Assembly (NCBI GenBank): GCA_015659035.1
Contig: DQNS01000053.1
Coordinates: 1 to 42,182 of the forward strand
Reading direction: 5' to 3'
Length of the DNA stretch: 42,182 bases
Source: Acidobacteriota bacterium
Lineage (GTDB): Bacteria > Acidobacteriota > Vicinamibacteria > Vicinamibacterales > UBA8438
Part shown: one piece after another, positions 4,256 through 42,182 of the stretch
Layout: each line of letters begins with the position of its first letter
How positions within the stretch are numbered: position 1 is the stretch's first letter
Notes under the pieces: model-generated
Seen by the model: the letters and a program-made list of their open reading frames with translations, nothing else
Told to the model about the DNA's origin: nothing
Database searches by the model: none
Made by a program: the position numbers and the translations under genes

Positions 4256-6733
4256 ATGTCGAGACACGCGGTGGTGAGGGGGCCCGCGGCGGCCGTCGCG
4301 TGGCTGGTGGTGGTCGGTGCGGTTACCGATGTCCCTGCTGCCGCCCGACAGGTACCCGCCTCCGGCCAGGCATCTCCGGCGTCGCCCCAGCGAGATCTGC
4401 TTGACCGTTACTGTCTGACATGCCACAACGGGCGCCTGGCGGCCCAGGGTACGGTGCCGGTCTCGTTCGAAGCCCTGAACACACGCGATGTCGGTCGAGA
4501 CCCGCAGGTCTGGGAGCAGGTCGTGCGCAAGCTGCGGCTCGGCATGATGCCGCCGGCCGGCCGCCCACGCCCGGACCAGGCGACGCACGACGGGTTTGTG
4601 GCGTGGCTCGAAGCAGAGCTCGATCGCGGAGCGGCCGCCAACCCGAACCCCGGCCGGCCGGCGATCCGCCGGCTGACCACCGCCGAGTACATCAACGCCA
4701 TCCGGAGCCTGCTGGATCTCGAGGTCGACGAGCGCTGGCTGCTGTTTCCGGCCGACGACGTGGACCAGGAGGGCTTCGCGACCAACGCCGATGTGCTGTC
4801 GGTCTCGCCGGCCCTGTTCGACCGCTATCTCTCCGCCGCGAACCGTGTCAGCCGTCTTGCCGTCGGCGACCCCACCATCGGGCCGGGGTTCGCCGCCGCC
4901 ACCTACGACACGCCCCGACTGCTGTATCAGGACGACCGGATGAGCGAGGAGCTCCCGTTCGGGTCGCGGGGGGGCATGGCGATTCGCCACTACTTTCCAC
5001 TCGACGGCGACTACGAGGTGAAGGTCCGGTTGCGCCGGATGATCTACGACTACATCGTCGGCATGGGCACGTCACAGCAGATCGAGGTGCGGCTCGATGG
5101 CAGGCTCGTCGAGCGCTTCACGGTCGGCGACGCGGACCGCGTCGGGTATCCGTCCGCCTACAGCTTCTTTGGCACCATCCGCGGCGACCCCGCGTGGGAA
5201 GAGTATGTCTCGGTCGAGGCGGATACCCATCTCGTGGTGCGCATGCCGGCGCAGGCAGGGATGCGGGTCATCGGCGTGTCGTTCGTCGACGCGCACACCG
5301 AGCCGACCGGGATTCTGGAACGGCGGCTGTCCGGCTTCTCACTCAGTGGTCTTGGCTTCTATCACGGCAACGCGGCGGTCGGGCGGGTGGAGGTGACCGG
5401 TCCCTACGACGCCATGGGGCCGGGGGACACGCCAAGCCGGCGGAGGCTGTTCACGTGTCGGCCGTCGGCGCCGGCGGCCGAGGGCCCGTGCGCCCGGGAG
5501 ATCCTGTCGCGACTTGCGCGACGCGCGTATCGGCGCCCGGTGACGGACGACGACCTCCAGACGTTGCTCGGGTTCTACGAGACCGGCCGGGCCGAGCGGG
5601 ACTTCGAGGCGGGGATTCAGAAGGCGATCGAACGGGTGCTGGTCGCGCCCGAGTTCCTGTTTCGCATCGAGCGTGAATCGCCCGATCTCGCGCCGGGAAC
5701 CGCCTACCGCCTCACCGATCTGGAGTTGGCCTCACGGCTGTCGTTCTTCCTGTGGAGCAGCATTCCCGACGAGGCGCTGCTGTCTGCGGCCGAGGCGGGT
5801 CGACTCCACGAGCCGGCCGAGCTCGAGCGGCAAGTGCGGCGGATGCTGGCCGACGCGCGCGCGAGGGCGCTCGTCGACGACTTCGCCAGTCAGTGGCTGC
5901 AGCTGCGTCGGGTGCGCGGGGTGATGCCGGATACGGACGTGTTCTACGAGTTCGACGAGAACCTCCGGGCCGATATGGAACGAGAGACGTTGCTGTTCCT
6001 GGAGAGTCAGCTGCGTGAGGACCGCGGGTTGCTCGACCTGTTGAGGGCGGACTACACGTTCGTGAACGAGCGTCTGGCGCGGCACTACGGCATCGCGGGC
6101 ATCTACGGCGAGCGGTTTCGTCGGGTGACCTTTGATGACGACGACAACCGAGGCGGCTTGCTGGGGCACGCCAGTCTGCTGACGCTGACCGCCTACCCGA
6201 CGCGGACCTCGCCGGTACTTCGGGGCAAGTGGCTGCTTGACAACATTCTCGGCATGCCGCCGTCCCCGCCGCCGGCCGACGTGCCGGCGCTCGAGGAGAA
6301 TCATGGTGCGGCCCAGCCGCGGTCGGTCCGCGAGCGGATGGAACGGCATCGGGCGAATCCGGCCTGCGCGGTCTGTCATCGGGTCATGGACCCCCCTGGG
6401 TTTGCACTCGAGCACTTCGACGCCATCGGGCGCTGGCGGGCCACGGATGAGACCGGGGCGCCGGTCGACGCCGCCGGAACACTGGCTGACGGTACCATGG
6501 TGGACGGTCCCGCGACCTTGCGACAGGCGTTGCTGGCTCATGAGCACAGCTTCGTGAGGACCGTCATCGAGAAGTTGCTGACCTATGCCGTCGGCCGCAG
6601 CATCGAGTACTATGATCAACCCGCCATTCGGAAGATCACGGCAGCAGCCGTATCCGACGACTACCGCTGGTCGTCGATCGTGCTCGGCATCGTCGAGAGC
6701 GTGCCGTTCCAGATGAGGAGGTCGGAGTCATGA
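4256..6733 (+). CDS. DUF1587/DUF1595/DUF1592/DUF1588/DUF1585 heme protein, cassette 1
   Basis: Large exported protein (825 residues) of the planctomycete-cytochrome (PSCyt/PSD) group. The ATG at 4256 is preferred over the upstream in-frame ATG at 4166 because it directly opens a signal peptide (hydrophobic core AAAVAWLVVVGAV, then PAAARQ). A heme motif CLTCH lies at residues 53-57. DUF1587 (RRLTTAEYINAIRSLLDLEV), DUF1595 (ILSRLARRAYRRPV), DUF1592 (ELASRLSFFLWSSIPDEALL) and DUF1588 (YPTRTSPVLRGKWLLDN) follow in family order. Near the C-terminus a second CxxCH (CAVCH, residues 704-708) precedes the DUF1585 part. It overlaps the following DUF1552 gene by 4 nt (ATGA), so the two are translationally coupled. 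Biochemical role is not established; presumably extracytoplasmic electron transfer or oxidation. Confidence 0.92.
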   Translation: MSRHAVVRGPAAAVAWLVVVGAVTDVPAAARQVPASGQASPASPQRDLLDRYCLTCHNGRLAAQGTVPVSFEALNTRDVGRDPQVWEQVVRKLRLGMMPPAGRPRPDQATHDGFVAWLEAELDRGAAANPNPGRPAIRRLTTAEYINAIRSLLDLEVDERWLLFPADDVDQEGFATNADVLSVSPALFDRYLSAANRVSRLAVGDPTIGPGFAAATYDTPRLLYQDDRMSEELPFGSRGGMAIRHYFPLDGDYEVKVRLRRMIYDYIVGMGTSQQIEVRLDGRLVERFTVGDADRVGYPSAYSFFGTIRGDPAWEEYVSVEADTHLVVRMPAQAGMRVIGVSFVDAHTEPTGILERRLSGFSLSGLGFYHGNAAVGRVEVTGPYDAMGPGDTPSRRRLFTCRPSAPAAEGPCAREILSRLARRAYRRPVTDDDLQTLLGFYETGRAERDFEAGIQKAIERVLVAPEFLFRIERESPDLAPGTAYRLTDLELASRLSFFLWSSIPDEALLSAAEAGRLHEPAELERQVRRMLADARARALVDDFASQWLQLRRVRGVMPDTDVFYEFDENLRADMERETLLFLESQLREDRGLLDLLRADYTFVNERLARHYGIAGIYGERFRRVTFDDDDNRGGLLGHASLLTLTAYPTRTSPVLRGKWLLDNILGMPPSPPPADVPALEENHGAAQPRSVRERMERHRANPACAVCHRVMDPPGFALEHFDAIGRWRATDETGAPVDAAGTLADGTMVDGPATLRQALLAHEHSFVRTVIEKLLTYAVGRSIEYYDQPAIRKITAAAVSDDYRWSSIVLGIVESVPFQMRRSES

Positions 6734-8133
6734 CGATGGGCAGCAAGGGCAGCTTGGGCAGAATGATGATTAGCAAGAAGGCGATTCCGCGCCGGATGGT
6801 GCTGCGTGGGCTGGGCGCGAGCGTCGCCTTGCCGTTTCTCGACAGCATGGTGCCGGCGCTGAGTGCGCTGAGCACGACGGCGGCGAACCCCACGGTGCGC
6901 TTCGGTGCGGTCTACGTGCCCAACGGGATGGTCATGCAGAACTGGACGCCGGCCGTCGAGGGGGCCGCGTTCGAGCTGCCACCGATTCTGCAGCCGCTGG
7001 CGCCGTTTCGCGACCAGCTGCTGGTGCTGTCCGGGCTCAACTGCACTCCGCCGCCCGGCACGCGGGGCGGGACGCACTCCCGGGCCGCGACACGCTTTCT
7101 GACCGACGTGCACCCGGGCCTCTGGAACCCGCAGGCGATTTCGATGGACCAGATCGCGGCCAGGGAACTGGGGCGGCACACGCCGCTGGCGTCGCTCGAG
7201 CTCGGGCTGGAAGGCGCCAATTTCGCCGGGTCGTGCGACAGCGGCGGTTTCAGCTGTGCCTTCTCGTACACGATCTCCTGGAGTAGCTCGTCGACGCCGT
7301 TGCCGATGGAGCACAACCCGCGGGCGGTGTTCGAGCGGCTGTTCGGCGACAGCGAGACGACGGACCCGGCGGCGCGGCAGGCACGTATGCGGGAGCAACG
7401 CAGCATTCTCGATTCGGTGAGCGAGGAGGTGGCGCGGCTGCGAGGCAGCCTGGGGCCGATCGACCGCGTCAAGATTGGCGCGTATCTCGACGCGGTCCGC
7501 GACGTCGAGCGTCGCATCGAGATCGCCGAGGCGCAGGGCGAACAGGAGGTGCCGCTGCTGACGCGCCCGATGGGCGTTCCGGCGCGCTTCGCGGACCATG
7601 CGCGCCTCATGTACGACCTGCAGCTGCTGGCACACCAGACCGACCGCACACGGGTCACCACGTTCATGGCCGGTCACGAGCTGAGCGGTCGTACCTACCC
7701 GGAGATCGACGTGCCGGATGCGCATCATCCGTTGTCGCATCATCGGAACGTGCCGGAGGCGCTCGCGAAGCTGACCAAGATCAACACGTATCACCTCACG
7801 CTGTTCGCGTCGTTCGTCGAGAAATTGCGGTCGACATCGGATGGAGACGGGTCGCTGCTGGACCACATGGTCCTCATGTACGGCGCCGGCATGAGCGACA
7901 GCAACTCCCACTCGCCCTACAACCTCCCGATCGTGCTCCTTGGCGGGGGGGCGGGTCAGCTCGCAGGCGGGCGGCATCTGGTGTATCCGGACCGCAATCG
8001 CACACCGCTGGCCAACCTGCACGTGACACTGCTCGACAAGCTCGGCGTCCCGGTGGAGCGGATGGGTGATAGCACCGGCCCGCTCGTGAACCTGTCTGGG
8101 CACGCGGGCATCGACACGCTGTCAGAGATCTAG
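6730..8133 (+). CDS. DUF1552 protein with Tat-type signal, cassette 1
   Basis: 467-residue member of the DUF1552 family, which often follows DUF1592 genes in Acidobacteria and Planctomycetes. The N-terminus carries a twin-arginine signal (PRRMVLRGLGASVALPFLDS), implying folding, perhaps with a cofactor, before export. The start at 6730 overlaps the upstream stop codon; an in-frame ATG at 6769 (MISKKAIPRR) is a possible alternative. The body has family-typical segments such as YVPNGMVMQNWTP, ISMDQIAARELG, HHPLSHHRNVPEALAKLTKI and DGSLLDHMVLMYGAGMSDSN. These recall an alkaline-phosphatase/sulfatase-like (DUF1501-type) fold, but a catalytic assignment would be speculative. It forms an operon with the DUF1592 gene before it and the ankyrin gene 6 bp after it. 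Confidence 0.9.
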   Translation: MTMGSKGSLGRMMISKKAIPRRMVLRGLGASVALPFLDSMVPALSALSTTAANPTVRFGAVYVPNGMVMQNWTPAVEGAAFELPPILQPLAPFRDQLLVLSGLNCTPPPGTRGGTHSRAATRFLTDVHPGLWNPQAISMDQIAARELGRHTPLASLELGLEGANFAGSCDSGGFSCAFSYTISWSSSSTPLPMEHNPRAVFERLFGDSETTDPAARQARMREQRSILDSVSEEVARLRGSLGPIDRVKIGAYLDAVRDVERRIEIAEAQGEQEVPLLTRPMGVPARFADHARLMYDLQLLAHQTDRTRVTTFMAGHELSGRTYPEIDVPDAHHPLSHHRNVPEALAKLTKINTYHLTLFASFVEKLRSTSDGDGSLLDHMVLMYGAGMSDSNSHSPYNLPIVLLGGGAGQLAGGRHLVYPDRNRTPLANLHVTLLDKLGVPVERMGDSTGPLVNLSGHAGIDTLSEI

Positions 8134-8139
8134 GCGCGG

Positions 8140-9675
8140 ATGTCTCAGGAGGCAGGAGACAGGAGACAGGAGGCAGGAGGAGCTGTAGGGCTTCGCCGGC
8201 TTCTGCTTGCCGCTGTGGTGCTGCTTACGACCGCGAGCGCTGTGTCGGCACAGCGCGTCGACCTGCGGCTCGTCGAGGCGGTCAAGCGCCAGGACACGGC
8301 GGCGGTGCGCGTCCTCGTCTCCGAGGCGGACGTGAACGCCACTCAGGCGGACGGCGCCACGGCGTTACATTGGGCCACCTATCGGGACGATCTCGCGACA
8401 GCGCGTCTGCTGATCGGTGCCGGCGCCGATGCCGGTGTGTCGAATGAGCTCGGCGTGACACCGTTGGACCTGGCGTGCGAGAACGCGAACGCGGCGATGG
8501 TCGAGATGCTGCTGACAGCCGGCGCCGACGCGACCGCCGCGGTCGGCTCGGGCGAGACGCTGCTGATGAGCTGTGCCCGCACCGGGAGCGTCGCGGCCGT
8601 GCGGGTCCTGGTGGCCGGTGGGGCCGAGGTGAACGCTCGAGAGCCGACCGAGAACCAGACGGCGCTGATGTGGGCCGTGGCCGAGCGTCATCCGGCGGTG
8701 GTCAAGCTGCTGCTCGACAGCGGCGCTGATCTCCATGCGCGGTCGCGTGTCAGACGGAAGGTCATCAGCCGGCGGCTGCAGTCCGAGCTCAAGTACGGCG
8801 AGCTCGGTCGCAGCTACGGCACCGATGCCGAGGAGACGAGCATCGGCGGGTTCACGCCGTTGCTGTTCGCCGCCCGGCAGGGCGACATCGAGTCGGCACG
8901 TCTGCTGCTGGCCGCGGGCGCCAGCGTCAACGACACCGCGCCCGACGGGGCCAGCGTGCTGGTCGTGGCGACACACAGCGGGCACGGGACGCTTGCGACG
9001 TTCCTGCTGGGGCACGGTGCCAACCCCAATGGCGCCGCGGCCGGCTACACGGCGCTCCACGCTGCGGTGCTCACGGGCGACCTGGATCTCGTCGAGGCGC
9101 TGCTTGCGCACGGGGCCCGCCCCGACGCGCAGGTCACACTGGCCACACGCGTGACACGCAACGGCCAGGTCCTGATGCTGGGCGAACATCTGCTCGGGTC
9201 GACGCCGTTTGCGCTCGCGGCGAAGTTCACCGAGGTTCGCATCATGCGCGCGCTGGCGGCCGCCGGCGCCGACGTGCGGCTCCCGCTGAAAAACGGGTGG
9301 ACGCCCTTGATGCTGGCGGCGAGCGCGAGTTGGAGATACGCGGTCTGGGACCGCCGCGACCGCGCGCTGGCCAAGGCCCCAGCGTTCCAGGCCCAGATGT
9401 ATGACGAGGACGGCACATTGGCGGCGGTCAGGTCCGCGGTCGAATCGGGCGCCGACGTCAACGCCGTCGACGCGGACGGGAACACGGCGCTGCACCACGT
9501 CGTCGACAAGGGCTTCGACACCGTCGTGGAGTTCCTTGCGGCGCGCAGTGCGGACCTGGACGCGACGAACCACCGCGGACAGACGGCGCTGGCGATCGTG
9601 GTACGCGGCCGCACGGGTAACACCGACGCGGCGCCGGCCACGGCGGACCTGCTTCGATCGCTGGGGGCGCAGTAG
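8140..9675 (+). CDS. Secreted ankyrin-repeat protein, cassette 1
   Basis: 511-residue protein with an N-terminal signal peptide (GLRRLLLAAVVLLTTASAVSA) and about ten or eleven ankyrin repeats, for example DGATALHWATYRDDLATARL, GGFTPLLFAARQGDIESARL and AGYTALHAAVLTGDLDLVEA, with GADVNA-type turns. Two non-repeat insertions interrupt the array (about residues 205-235 and 325-350). It probably acts as an extracytoplasmic protein-binding scaffold; the partner is unknown, but the position right behind the DUF1592/DUF1552 pair suggests one of those. The first 20 or so codons are made of a dispersed repeat (8146-8206). No alternative in-frame ATG, GTG or TTG lies between it and the signal core, so the repeat appears really to be translated. 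Confidence 0.9.
   Translation: MSQEAGDRRQEAGGAVGLRRLLLAAVVLLTTASAVSAQRVDLRLVEAVKRQDTAAVRVLVSEADVNATQADGATALHWATYRDDLATARLLIGAGADAGVSNELGVTPLDLACENANAAMVEMLLTAGADATAAVGSGETLLMSCARTGSVAAVRVLVAGGAEVNAREPTENQTALMWAVAERHPAVVKLLLDSGADLHARSRVRRKVISRRLQSELKYGELGRSYGTDAEETSIGGFTPLLFAARQGDIESARLLLAAGASVNDTAPDGASVLVVATHSGHGTLATFLLGHGANPNGAAAGYTALHAAVLTGDLDLVEALLAHGARPDAQVTLATRVTRNGQVLMLGEHLLGSTPFALAAKFTEVRIMRALAAAGADVRLPLKNGWTPLMLAASASWRYAVWDRRDRALAKAPAFQAQMYDEDGTLAAVRSAVESGADVNAVDADGNTALHHVVDKGFDTVVEFLAARSADLDATNHRGQTALAIVVRGRTGNTDAAPATADLLRSLGAQ
8146..8206 (+). repeat. Dispersed GGAGACAGGAG/GGGCTTCGCCGG repeat, copy a
   Basis: Purine-rich GGAGACAGGAG units followed by GGGCTTCGCCGGCTTCTG. The same module recurs at 12599-12655 (minus), 28496-28533, 31970-32014 and 37894-37950 (minus). 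In this copy the repeat is in frame with the ankyrin gene and encodes the n-region of its signal peptide. Confidence 0.75.
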
Positions 9676-36689: not shown

Positions 36690-37832
36690 CTAACGATTTG
36701 CCCGTTGCCGGTCGAGCGCGTCGAGGTCGAGCGTGAACGAGAGCGGCACAGACACCGGGTCGAAGCAGAGCTCGTCGTTGCAGGCCTGATAGTCGAGCGT
36801 CCCGGTCAGGGTCAGCGCGTCGAGCTCGGCCAGCGCTTCCTCAACCTCCGCTGCCCCCGAGACGACCACCTCCTGCAACAGCATGAACGGCTGCTGATAC
36901 ACCGGCACCCGCTCGTCGAGCGGCTCGAAGTGGTAGAGCTCCGATGCCGGGAACTCGACCGGCTCGAACCGGACGTGCGACACCGGGGCCATGGTGAGCC
37001 CGATCACGCGGTAGCCCATCTGCTCGGCGCCCGGCGCGTAGACGTGGATGTTCGGGTTGGGCACGATCTCGATCGCGATCGAGAACCGGGTGCCGACGGT
37101 GACGCTCGGGTCGCTCGGATAGGCGGTCAGCGTCAGGTGTGCGGTCGTGCCCTCGATCGCGGCAATCGGGGAGAGACCCGCGCCAAGCTTCAACATCACG
37201 TTCGCTGTCGTGTTCCGCTCCCGGTAGAACTCCTCGAAGAATCGCGACGTGACGCGACCCGTCCCATCGAGTATGAAGGTGCCCGGGTGGGGGGTGCCGA
37301 CGATCATCGGGTTGGCGCCGAAGAGCGAGACATACTTCGCCACATCGGCGACGACGTTAGGATCGTCCCGATTCGGGCCCACACCCTCCGCCGCCACGGT
37401 GTTCAGGATGCCGAACGCCGTGATCACCGACGAGTCGTCGTCCGACAGGAGCGGGAACGTGATGTCCCGTCGTTGGCTGAAGTCGGCAAGCACCTCCTCC
37501 GAGTCGTAACTGATCGCCACGACGCCGAGCCCTTGCGCCCGCAGTTCCTCCAAGCGGCTTTGCAGCTCCACGAGCTGCGCTTTGCAATACGGTCACCAGT
37601 TGGCCGAGCGGTGAAACAGCAGAATCGCACCGTTCGGTCCCAGGACGGAATCGCGGGTCCAGACCCGGCCGGTCTGATCCGAGAGGCTGAAATCGGGCAC
37701 ACGTTCGCCGACTTGCGGGCCAAGCGACGCCACCTCGATCGGGGTTCTGGACTGCATCCCCTGAGACGGGAATCCAAGCACCAGGGCTGCCAGGACCCCG
37801 GTCAATGCCGCTCGCGGAACCACCTTTGTCAT
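36690..37832 (-). CDS. Selenoprotein redoxin with DsbD-type C-terminal domain (in-frame TGA = Sec)
   Basis: 380 residues if the TGA at 37593-37595 is read as selenocysteine (residue 80). Residues 1-25 form a signal peptide (AALTGVLAALVLGFPSQG). Residues about 36-190 are an AhpC/TSA-type thioredoxin fold: VGERVPDFSLSDQTGRVWTR, ILLFHRSANW, then Sec80-PYC, KAQLVELQSRLEELRAQGLG, VVAISYDSEEVLADFSQRRD and FPLLSDDDSSVITAFGI. The Sec replaces the first Cys of CxxC (UPYC, Cys83). The C-terminal part (PSVTVGTRFSIAIEI to YQACNDELCFDPVSVPLSFT) resembles the DsbD N-terminal domain with its CxxxxC pair. The protein probably handles thiol/disulfide or peroxide chemistry outside the cytoplasm. Standard gene callers would report two pieces, 37593-37832 and 36690-37571. 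Confidence 0.85.
37562..37578 (-). promoter_or_regulatory. SECIS-like hairpin after the Sec UGA
   Basis: On the minus strand GCAGCTC-GTG-GAGCTGC forms a perfect 7-bp stem whose loop lies 21 nt after the UGA. This falls in the distance window known for bacterial SECIS elements (loop about 16-37 nt after UGA, G in the loop). It lies inside the coding sequence, as bacterial SECIS elements do. Direct sequence evidence; binding by SelB is inferred. Confidence 0.7.
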
Positions 37833-39196: not shown

Positions 39197-39595
39197 CTAC
39201 ACCTGCGGCGGGGTGCCCTTCCCCCTGCCGCGACCCTTTCCTTTGCCTCGGCCCCGGCCCTTGCCGCGGCCCCTGCCGTCGCCCTTGCCGCGCCCCTTGC
39301 CGGTACCGTCACCGGGCCGCTGACCCTTGCCGCGCCCCTTGCCGGTACCGTCACCGGGCCGCTGACCCTTGCCACGCCCCTTGCCGGTACCGTCGCCTTT
39401 GCCCTTGCCGCGGCCCTTCCCCTTGCCGGTGCCGTCGGGGGGCTGCGGCGGTTGCGGATCCTGCGCCAGCACCGTCGCAGTAGGCAGCACGGCGAGCGCG
39501 CCGGCACCAGCCAGCAGACGCCGCAATGCCTGACGCCGGGTTGTCGGGATGTTCTTCAGCAGGGTTTCCAGTTGTTCGCCTATCTCTCGAGACAC
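39197..39595 (-). CDS. Exported Gly-Lys/Arg-rich tandem-repeat protein
   Basis: 132 residues, GTG start with AAGGAG 6 bp upstream. The N-terminus is MSREIGEQLETLLKNIPTTR, then a twin-arginine-like signal (RRQALRRLLAGAGALAVLPT, ending VLAQD). The mature part is a Pro-rich hinge and then about 80 residues of almost only Gly, Lys, Arg and Asp in GKG/GRG steps, with DGTGKGRGKGQRPG repeated. It resembles no enzyme; the strongly cationic repeat could bind nucleic acid, acidic polymer or the cell surface. It is 94 bp upstream of the PqqD-methyltransferase gene in the same direction and could be its substrate. The leader and repeat-core layout fits a peptide precursor, but a plain export signal explains it equally well. 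Confidence 0.7.
   Translation of the reverse strand: MSREIGEQLETLLKNIPTTRRQALRRLLAGAGALAVLPTATVLAQDPQPPQPPDGTGKGKGRGKGKGDGTGKGRGKGQRPGDGTGKGRGKGQRPGDGTGKGRGKGDGRGRGKGRGRGKGKGRGRGKGTPPQV
39285..39395. repeat. 42-bp in-frame tandem repeat
   Basis: Two almost identical 42-bp units (39285-39326 and 39327-39368) and a partial third unit encode the 14-residue DGTGKGRGKGQRPG step of the Gly-Lys-rich protein. The unit keeps the frame, so copy number can vary without breaking the gene. Not CRISPR: no spacers. Confidence 0.85.
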
Positions 39596-40467: not shown

Positions 40468-40893
40468 ATGCGAACGGTGCAGAAGCTCACACTCGATGAC
40501 GCGCGCGTGATGATGACCGCCGCCGAGGCCAAGGCGCAAGAGATCGGTGTCGATATGGACATCGCCATCACCGACGACAACGGCAGCCTGCTGATGTTTC
40601 ACCGGATGGATGGTGGGCGGATCACGAGCATCGACATCGCGATCAGCAAGGCGTTCACGGGGGCGGCCGCGCGCAAGTCGACGCGGGCGTATGGCGAGGT
40701 CAGCGGTCCCGGTGGTCCCGCGTTCGGGATCCACGTCAGCAATCAAGGGCGCTTCATGATCGTCGCCGGCGGCCTGCCGGTGTTCGTCGACGAGCAGATC
40801 GTCGCCGGCATCGGGTGCAGCTCCGGCAGTCCGGACCAGGACGAGGTAGTGGCCCAGGCCGGCATCGATGCGCTGTTGGCGAGCTTGACCTAG
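40468..40893 (+). CDS. GlcG/HbpS-like (DUF336) protein
   Basis: 141 residues with GGGAGGTT 8 bp before the ATG. This single-domain PAS-like alpha/beta fold (LTLDDARVMMTAAEAKAQEI, MDIAITDDNGSLLMFHRMDG, AISKAFTGAAARKS, GGPAFGIHVSNQGRFMIVAG, GLPVFVDEQIVAGIGCSSGS, DEVVAQAGIDALLA) is the whole family length. Relatives bind heme or act as accessory or sensor proteins; this copy has no signal peptide. The stop codon overlaps by 4 nt the stop of the convergent ankyrin gene. Confidence 0.92.
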   Translation: MRTVQKLTLDDARVMMTAAEAKAQEIGVDMDIAITDDNGSLLMFHRMDGGRITSIDIAISKAFTGAAARKSTRAYGEVSGPGGPAFGIHVSNQGRFMIVAGGLPVFVDEQIVAGIGCSSGSPDQDEVVAQAGIDALLASLT

Positions 40894-42182
40894 CGCTGCG
40901 TGTCCTGACGGGCCTTCAGGACGGCCTTGAAGTCCTTGCCGAGGTCTTTCCCCAGCGTGGTGCTTGCCCCCAACCGTGCGAGGAGTTCGCCGGTCTCCTT
41001 CTGGGTGTAGAAGGAGCCCGATCGATATTCGCCCTTCGCGGCGATGATCCAGGGGGTCTGGCCACGCGCGTTGATCGCGTTGATGTCGGCGCCTTGCTCG
41101 ACGAGGAACGGAACCAGGAGTGTGCCGCCGAGATAGACGACGGCGTGCAACGTCGTTTGCTCATAGTCGTTGGTGGCGTTGATGTCGAGACCCAGGTCCA
41201 GCAGGAACTTCATCGTCGCGAGCGCCGATTCCTGAAGCGGCAGATTGTTCCCGAACCAGCGGCGGCCGTACTTGTCCGCCCCATCCACGTAGTCGGCTCC
41301 GGCGGCCACCATGAGCGCGGTCGTGCCGTCGTCGACGGTGGACATCGGGTCTGCGCCGCCGCGCAGTAAGGTCCGCATGCTCTCCAGGTCGCCGAAGCTG
41401 GCCGCCAGGAAGAACGGTGTGGCCCCCGTGTTGGACGGCGTCAGCCCGTTGTCCTGGCTGATGCGGCGCGACACGAAGGGGAGACGACGTTCGAGTCTGG
41501 CGTTTGGATCCGCGCCGCGCTCCAGCAGGGCGGCGACGACGTCCGGCATTGCCCCCTGGACGGCGGCGTGCAGCGCCGTGCGCCCCGCGCCGGCGTGACC
41601 GGGGTCGGCGCCCCGCTCCAGCAGAAACAGCGCCATGTCGGCATGACCGCTGTCGATAGCCACAAGCAGCGCGGCGGCGTCGGTATCGGCGATGAACCGC
41701 GTGCGGGCGTTCGTGTTGCCGCCGATGCCCTCCGGCGCCGATTCGTTGGCGTCCGCGCCGGCGGACAGCAGCAGCCGGGCCGCGTCGATGTTCCCCTGCT
41801 GCGCGGCGAATAGCAGCGCCGTGAACCGGTTTGTGGACCGTGCCGAGACCGTTGCGCCGACCTCGAGCAGCACGCGTGCGACCGGGGTGTGGTTCTCTGC
41901 CACCGCCAGCATCAAGGCGGTCTGCCCGAGGGTCGCCTCGGTGGCGTTCGGGTCGGCGCCGGCAGCCACGAGGCGCCGGACCACATCCACGTTGCCCACG
42001 CGTGCGGCGGTCATCAGCGGGGTCTCGCCGTTGCTGCGTGCCGCGTTGGCGTCGGCCCCGGCGGCGAGGAGCCTGTCGACCACTGCGGCGCTGCCGTTCA
42101 GACAGGCCAGCGACAAGGGGGTCACACCATGGTCGTCCGCCGCATTCGCATCGGCGCCGGCATCGAGCAGAAAGCTGACCAA
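40890..42182 (-). CDS. Ankyrin-repeat protein, third copy, 5' end outside window
   Basis: At least 430 residues; the frame is open through the window edge, so the N-terminus (probably a signal peptide and one or two repeats) is missing. About eleven ankyrin repeats are visible, for example HGVTPLSLACLNGSAAVVDR, NGETPLMTAARVGNVDVVRR, NRFTALLFAAQQGNIDAARL, AGRTALHAAVQGAMPDVVAA and RGQTPWIIAAKGEYRSGSFY. The insertion before a GATPFFLAA repeat occurs at the same place as in the other two ankyrin proteins, so all three are paralogues. It may belong to a third DUF1592/DUF1552 cassette beyond the window. Confidence 0.92.
   Translation of the reverse strand: MVSFLLDAGADANAADDHGVTPLSLACLNGSAAVVDRLLAAGADANAARSNGETPLMTAARVGNVDVVRRLVAAGADPNATEATLGQTALMLAVAENHTPVARVLLEVGATVSARSTNRFTALLFAAQQGNIDAARLLLSAGADANESAPEGIGGNTNARTRFIADTDAAALLVAIDSGHADMALFLLERGADPGHAGAGRTALHAAVQGAMPDVVAALLERGADPNARLERRLPFVSRRISQDNGLTPSNTGATPFFLAASFGDLESMRTLLRGGADPMSTVDDGTTALMVAAGADYVDGADKYGRRWFGNNLPLQESALATMKFLLDLGLDINATNDYEQTTLHAVVYLGGTLLVPFLVEQGADINAINARGQTPWIIAAKGEYRSGSFYTQKETGELLARLGASTTLGKDLGKDFKAVLKARQDTQR

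Follow-up and report, generated by a model that had tools for sequence, protein, structure and literature searches.

A selenoprotein of Acidobacteriota joining a redoxin-type Sec-x-x-Cys site to a DsbD-alpha domain, and its probable role as an exported thiol:disulfide oxidoreductase

We describe a gene of an Acidobacteriota bacterium, located on the minus strand at 36690..37832 of the window (the whole stretch of 42,182 nucleotides analysed here, contig DQNS01000053.1 of assembly GCA_015659035.1), whose in-frame UGA at codon 80 almost certainly encodes selenocysteine (Sec), making the product a selenoprotein. Comparison of sequences supports Sec coding, a bacterial SECIS hairpin, a redoxin domain fused to a DsbD-alpha domain, four conserved redox residues, and probable export. 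The reading we prefer, to which we give a probability of roughly 0.78, is that the product is an exported selenoprotein acting as a thiol:disulfide oxidoreductase, and that its Sec-Cys pair is recycled by the dithiol of the fused DsbD-alpha domain.

The gene and its surroundings

The frame opens with an ATG at 37832 and closes with a TAG at 36692-36690, giving 380 codons plus the stop, and its sole interruption is the TGA at 37593..37595. With that TGA read as U, the protein has 380 residues and a single recoded codon, in the context ...FHRSANW-U-PYCKAQLVELQ.... A match is present in all 28 genomes of the host's family, and in 24 of these it is a long TGA-containing orthologue. The first 28 residues or so (37749..37832, minus strand) are a hydrophobic stretch with the look of an N-terminal signal peptide, and a simple hydropathy rule finds a hydrophobic 12-mer after a basic residue in 46 of the 51 aligned members; export of the window protein thus appears probable.

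Judged by eye, the neighbours in the window (a methyltransferase and a GMC oxidoreductase) are unrelated to the selenoprotein gene, and no neighbourhood around its homologues is widely common across genera. Elsewhere on the same strand, 39197-39595 holds a possibly coding frame of low complexity made mostly of G-K-R repeats (GTGKGRGKG), and the translation of 40890-42182, at the window end, looks by eye like an ankyrin-repeat protein.

The redoxin domain and its active site

Residues 41-195 (37248..37712, minus strand) form an AhpC-TSA/redoxin domain of thioredoxin fold (PF00578, E 3e-26; 92.1 bits against a cut-off of 26). Sec80 takes the first position of its U-P-Y-C site, and Cys83 (37584..37586), the putative resolving residue, is present in 117/117 TGA forms of the gene; U80 and C83, together with C351 and C356 of the C-terminal domain, are invariant across the 51 sequences of alignment A1. 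An AhpC-TSA match above cut-off combined with U80-P-Y-C83 places the protein among the Prx-like UxxC oxidoreductases. A plasmid sequence search returned only distant Prx-like proteins, with 25-31% identity among the matches listed.

The nearest folds of this domain are the peroxiredoxins AhpE, BcpB and Bcp4 (Z about 18), and fused dithiol domains can act as reductants for peroxidases; both points would suit a genuine Sec protein that is instead a seleno-peroxiredoxin, that is, a peroxidase with the fused DsbD-alpha domain as its reductant. The active site itself, however, speaks against peroxidase activity: profile alignment with Bcp and AhpE puts C83 at the position of the peroxidatic Cys and U80 at that of the Prx Thr/Ser; S76, part of a conserved R75-S76 pair, stands for the Pro of PxxxTxxC, and the peroxiredoxin signature PxxxT(S)xxC/U is absent; and ResA-type oxidoreductases match the domain at similar significance. 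Given this placement of C83 and U80, the site is better read as that of a ResA-like disulfide oxidoreductase than of a peroxidase, which we regard as an unlikely function for this protein.

The DsbD-alpha domain and a possible relay

The preliminary description had proposed a DsbD-like domain fused to the redoxin, and both profile and fold comparisons bear this out. The domain covers about residues 226-371 (36720..37157, minus strand). PF11412 (DsbD_N) is matched by 51/51 members at E 0.01 or better, the best at 5e-13, and residues 246-359 of the window protein score 24.3, just below the cut-off of 25. Modelled alone (pLDDT 88.9), the domain has as its best eleven fold matches nothing but ScsB/DsbD N-terminal domains (Z 9.8-12.3, rmsd 2.2-3.2 over 103-125 residues; Z 10-12 to DsbD-alpha/ScsB in round figures), against Z <= 8.3 for unrelated folds; the Foldseek ranking was weak beyond ScsB, and a PDB sequence search with the C-terminal domain alone gave nothing useful. 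Its redox pair, Cys351 (36780..36782) and Cys356 (36765..36767), both invariant in A1, lies in the motif CNDELC, and the longer YQACNDELCF recurs as YQACNDRMCF in the full-length DsbD that the same genome encodes, whose alpha domain is homologous. One homologue (L101), which was excluded from A1, has Arg in place of Cys356. The protein is not a whole DsbD: neither Pfam nor the model finds transmembrane beta or thioredoxin-like gamma domains in its 380 residues.

We infer the steps of the following relay (attack, resolution, reduction and refilling) from DsbD biochemistry, and likewise the presence of Sec in the protein, the direction of electron flow, the substrate and the donor. The mature protein would carry two domains, a Prx-like one of thioredoxin fold with Sec-Pro-Tyr-Cys and, fused to it, DsbD-alpha with its CxxxxC pair. 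Outside the cytoplasm, Sec80 would attack an oxidised substrate; Cys83 would resolve the Sec80-substrate intermediate, leaving a Sec-Cys bond; the Cys351-Cys356 dithiol would reduce that bond, within or between chains; and the DsbD-alpha domain would in turn receive fresh electrons from a donor in the membrane, for example the host's own DsbD. That the fused dithiol recycles the Sec-Cys pair is, by analogy, a slightly better than even proposition.

DsbD-alpha normally docks client proteins, and the fused domain could accordingly be a docking or substrate-presenting module rather than an electron donor, the Sec site being reduced by an external thioredoxin-like protein. A docking role does not account well for the cysteines, both of which are invariant in the 51 sequences though much else varies, and neither of which is missing from any full-length Cys form among those listed; we think it improbable, about as much so as a peroxidase.

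Evidence that the UGA specifies selenocysteine

After removal of duplicates, 117 distinct homologues carry TGA at residue 80 and 7 carry TGC or TGT; the TGA forms come from Acidobacteriota, Gammaproteobacteria and MAGs with a Gemmatimonadetes label. The residue replacing Sec is always Cys, in agreement with the earlier suggestion that the TGA stands at the first Cys of a CxxC site. One apparent homologue with another codon at residue 80 (L177) was rejected, being a SelL-related protein aligned out of register. In one genome (G142; L164, L165), which has SelA, the fusion protein occurs in two forms, one with Cys and one with UGA.

Full-length SelA was found in 33/35 TGA-form genomes vs 0/5 Cys-only genomes (40 genomes tested; Fisher p 3e-5), one of the latter, G088, giving weak SelA hits only (best 32 bits); SelA is also present in 14 of 15 further TGA-form genomes, chiefly Gammaproteobacteria. 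The TGA-form genomes with no SelA match are G005 (85% complete), G166 (650 contigs) and, in the further set, G329, and these absences may be assembly gaps.

The UGA is followed by a perfect 7-bp hairpin, GCAGCUC-GUG-GAGCUGC (37562..37578, minus strand; arms 37578-37572 and 37568-37562, loop 37571-37569), lying inside the coding sequence, where it would direct Sec decoding. It had been placed 21 nt after the TGA; the hairpin itself is as described, but 21 nt is the distance to the loop, and the stem begins after 14 nt. The published bSECIS model asks for a loop of 3-9 nt, a stem of 4-16 bp, a G among the first two loop bases, a spacing of 16-37 nt between UGA and loop, and an MFE of at most -7.5 (PMC13188914). 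The window hairpin, at -11.6 kcal/mol, agrees with this model, as do 111 of its 117 TGA-bearing relatives, which upholds the original identification of a bacterial SECIS; only 1/7 Cys forms has such a core at -7.5 or below. In single-sequence folding the stability of the hairpin is not exceptional relative to shuffles (z = 0.22 for a 48-nt fold, z = -1.65 for 28 nt), and for that reason we do not count it by itself as evidence.

The comparative data are more telling. The loop lies 20 or 21 nt from the UGA in 115/117 TGA forms. Base 3 of codon Q86 is paired with base 1 of codon L90, and either can change without altering the amino acid; the 117 TGA forms comprise 75 with CAG-CTG, 37 with CAA-TTG, 5 with CAG-TTG (a G-U pair) and none with the mismatch CAA-CTG, these states having changed at least 10 times on the protein tree. 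A covariation test on independent pairs counted 4 double changes together and 0 against, with only these 4 informative (p 0.125), a number too small to reach significance on its own. Codon choice is constrained as well: E89 is GAG in 108/108, where codon use in these genes would predict 69, and L87 is CTC in 101/117, where 35 would be predicted. Taken together, the 117 TGA homologues, the fixed distance, the synonymous covariation and dN below dS put the hairpin and the UGA far beyond what chance would produce. The sole Cys form that passes the SECIS model (L174, G318:C2), in a genome without SelA, has its hairpin intact; here Sec has probably given way to Cys only recently, leaving the SECIS as a fossil.

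The means to decode UGA are encoded in the host genome, in which selA, selB, selD and tRNA-Sec had been named as the genes to look for: all four are there, on contigs other than that of the window. SelA scores 443 bits, SelB 350 bits (cut-off 242) and SelD 291 bits (cut-off 125); the tRNA-Sec scores 55.5 bits (cut-off 47), has a UCA anticodon, and lies at a contig end with its last bases missing. The UGA at codon 80 would be decoded as Sec by this SelA/SelB/SelD/tRNA-Sec set. A second in-frame-UGA gene of the genome (G000:C39, minus strand), the locus L177 mentioned above, encodes the SelL-related protein with the site ...FHRHLF-U-LPCRRH... (U-L-P-C) and scores 164.7 bits with NF040769, whose cut-off is 120. 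The window gene combines three sequence marks of a bacterial selenoprotein: its in-frame UGA occupies a conserved redox position where some homologues have Cys, a hairpin of the bSECIS type follows, and selA, selB, selC and selD are in the same genome.

An in-frame UGA alone does not specify the residue inserted, and genome-wide reassignment or suppression could in principle supply another amino acid; with Cys the only alternative residue, a SECIS and the Sec machinery present, and the Cys form tracking the absence of SelA, we regard this as extremely improbable. Equally improbable is an ordinary stop, pseudogene or sequencing error with the downstream part starting at GTG 37571, as the split made by gene callers might suggest, because TGA is retained in 117 homologues of several phyla, the protein is conserved across it, dN being well below dS on either side, and the downstream ORF would be left with neither active site nor signal peptide; conservation across the UGA is the ground on which we reject stop, pseudogene and frameshift alike. 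Homologues, moreover, do not begin downstream of the TGA, and the two frames that gene callers would separate are, as first proposed, parts of one protein.

Relation to known selenoproteins

Prx-like UxxC thiol:disulfide oxidoreductase selenoproteins of the PF00578 family are already known (PMC13188914, Table 1; Prx-like 1 and 3, PMC2398784). The window protein shares with them the AhpC-TSA/redoxin fold, Sec as the first residue of a CxxC site, a bacterial SECIS and the existence of Cys homologues, of which those proteins have many; unlike them, it has a C-terminal DsbD-alpha fusion and a signal peptide. No NCBIfam model scores above its cut-off for the window protein, and its relatives are matched by general redoxin/peroxiredoxin models. 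The SelL-related redox proteins (NF040769), with a member in the host genome, have the Prx-like fold and Sec-x-x-Cys in common with it but differ in architecture, and the window protein reaches only 47.7 bits against their cut-off of 120. With the alpha domain of DsbD/ScsB (PF11412; PDB 1jpe, 1vrs, 6c29; Z 10.4-12.3) it shares the fold and, as in the resident DsbD, the YQACxDxxCF cysteine-pair motif; in contrast to DsbD/ScsB, it carries this domain attached to a selenoredoxin, with no transmembrane beta or gamma domain.

Two other selenoproteins invite comparison. TsoB (NF045694), described as a rhodanese/DsbD fusion-like selenoprotein (PMC13188914), also has a DsbD-like part, but its partner is a rhodanese and its motif UxxxxU, whereas the window protein has Sec in the redoxin domain and a Cys-Cys pair in DsbD-alpha; NF045694 is absent from the NCBIfam matches of the relatives of the window protein. 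Unknown_3, as far as its available description goes, likewise joins a Prx-like selenoprotein to a further domain in which cysteines are conserved, and is probably set apart by having three conserved Cys including a CxxC rather than two in CxxxxC. A literature search of partial coverage found no paper uniting redoxin, selenoprotein and Acidobacteria, and none on the fusion family; in the literature searched, DsbD, SECIS and selenoprotein occur together only in a 2026 review, and TsoB alone was found as a DsbD-containing selenoprotein. The accessible part of deep-Sep lists one Acidobacteriota genome, and the redoxin-DsbD-alpha family was not found in that part. The fusion adds a new architecture to a kind of selenoprotein that is itself well known.

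Linkage to the sel genes, transfer and significance

Complete selC-selA-selB-selD clusters that include a redoxin-DsbD-alpha gene were found in two genomes, and their gene orders differ. In G055 (L180) the redoxin-DsbD-alpha gene at 3.7-4.8 kb is followed by tRNA-Sec (4853-4947, opposite strand), selA (4989-6392), selB (6398-8404) and selD (8464-9426); in G209 (L181/L182) selB, a frame in which SelD is fused to an NADH dehydrogenase-like part, selA and the redoxin gene lie on one strand, with tRNA-Sec just upstream of selB. At a third locus (L085), in a proteobacterial MAG, a divergent selA has two neighbours, a second UGA gene and the redoxin gene. That second gene (1550-2689, between selA and the redoxin gene) encodes a Redoxin/deiodinase-like, probable selenoprotein (...GCLT-U-PPF...) with a weak DsbD_N-like segment, YYACDDALTFC, at its C-terminus, and is possibly another Sec-plus-DsbD-alpha fusion.

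On the protein tree the gammaproteobacterial sequences sit inside acidobacterial diversity, a nesting that suggests horizontal transfer. The gammaproteobacterial loci (L038-L117) come from Pseudohongiella, OM182 and SAR86-labelled MAGs; genome OX638378 has three copies, and the family has probably expanded there as well as moved. We offer, tentatively and as the less probable course of events, that redoxin-DsbD-alpha was the founding client of a self-contained Sec cassette (client, selC, selA, selB and selD; ~6-7 kb) that moved between Acidobacteriota and Gammaproteobacteria and would have given its recipient a selenium-based, self-reducing relay outside the cytoplasm.

The family described here is widespread and unannotated, is split by gene callers, and is known mostly from metagenome-assembled genomes. 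In it, a single exported chain would combine a Sec active site with the domain that probably serves as its reductase. The pairs of Sec and Cys orthologues, in one of which a SECIS is left over, allow the worth of Sec relative to Cys to be tested within a single protein, and how the Sec trait spreads together with a client gene can be tested directly through the gene's linkage to the complete Sec machinery.
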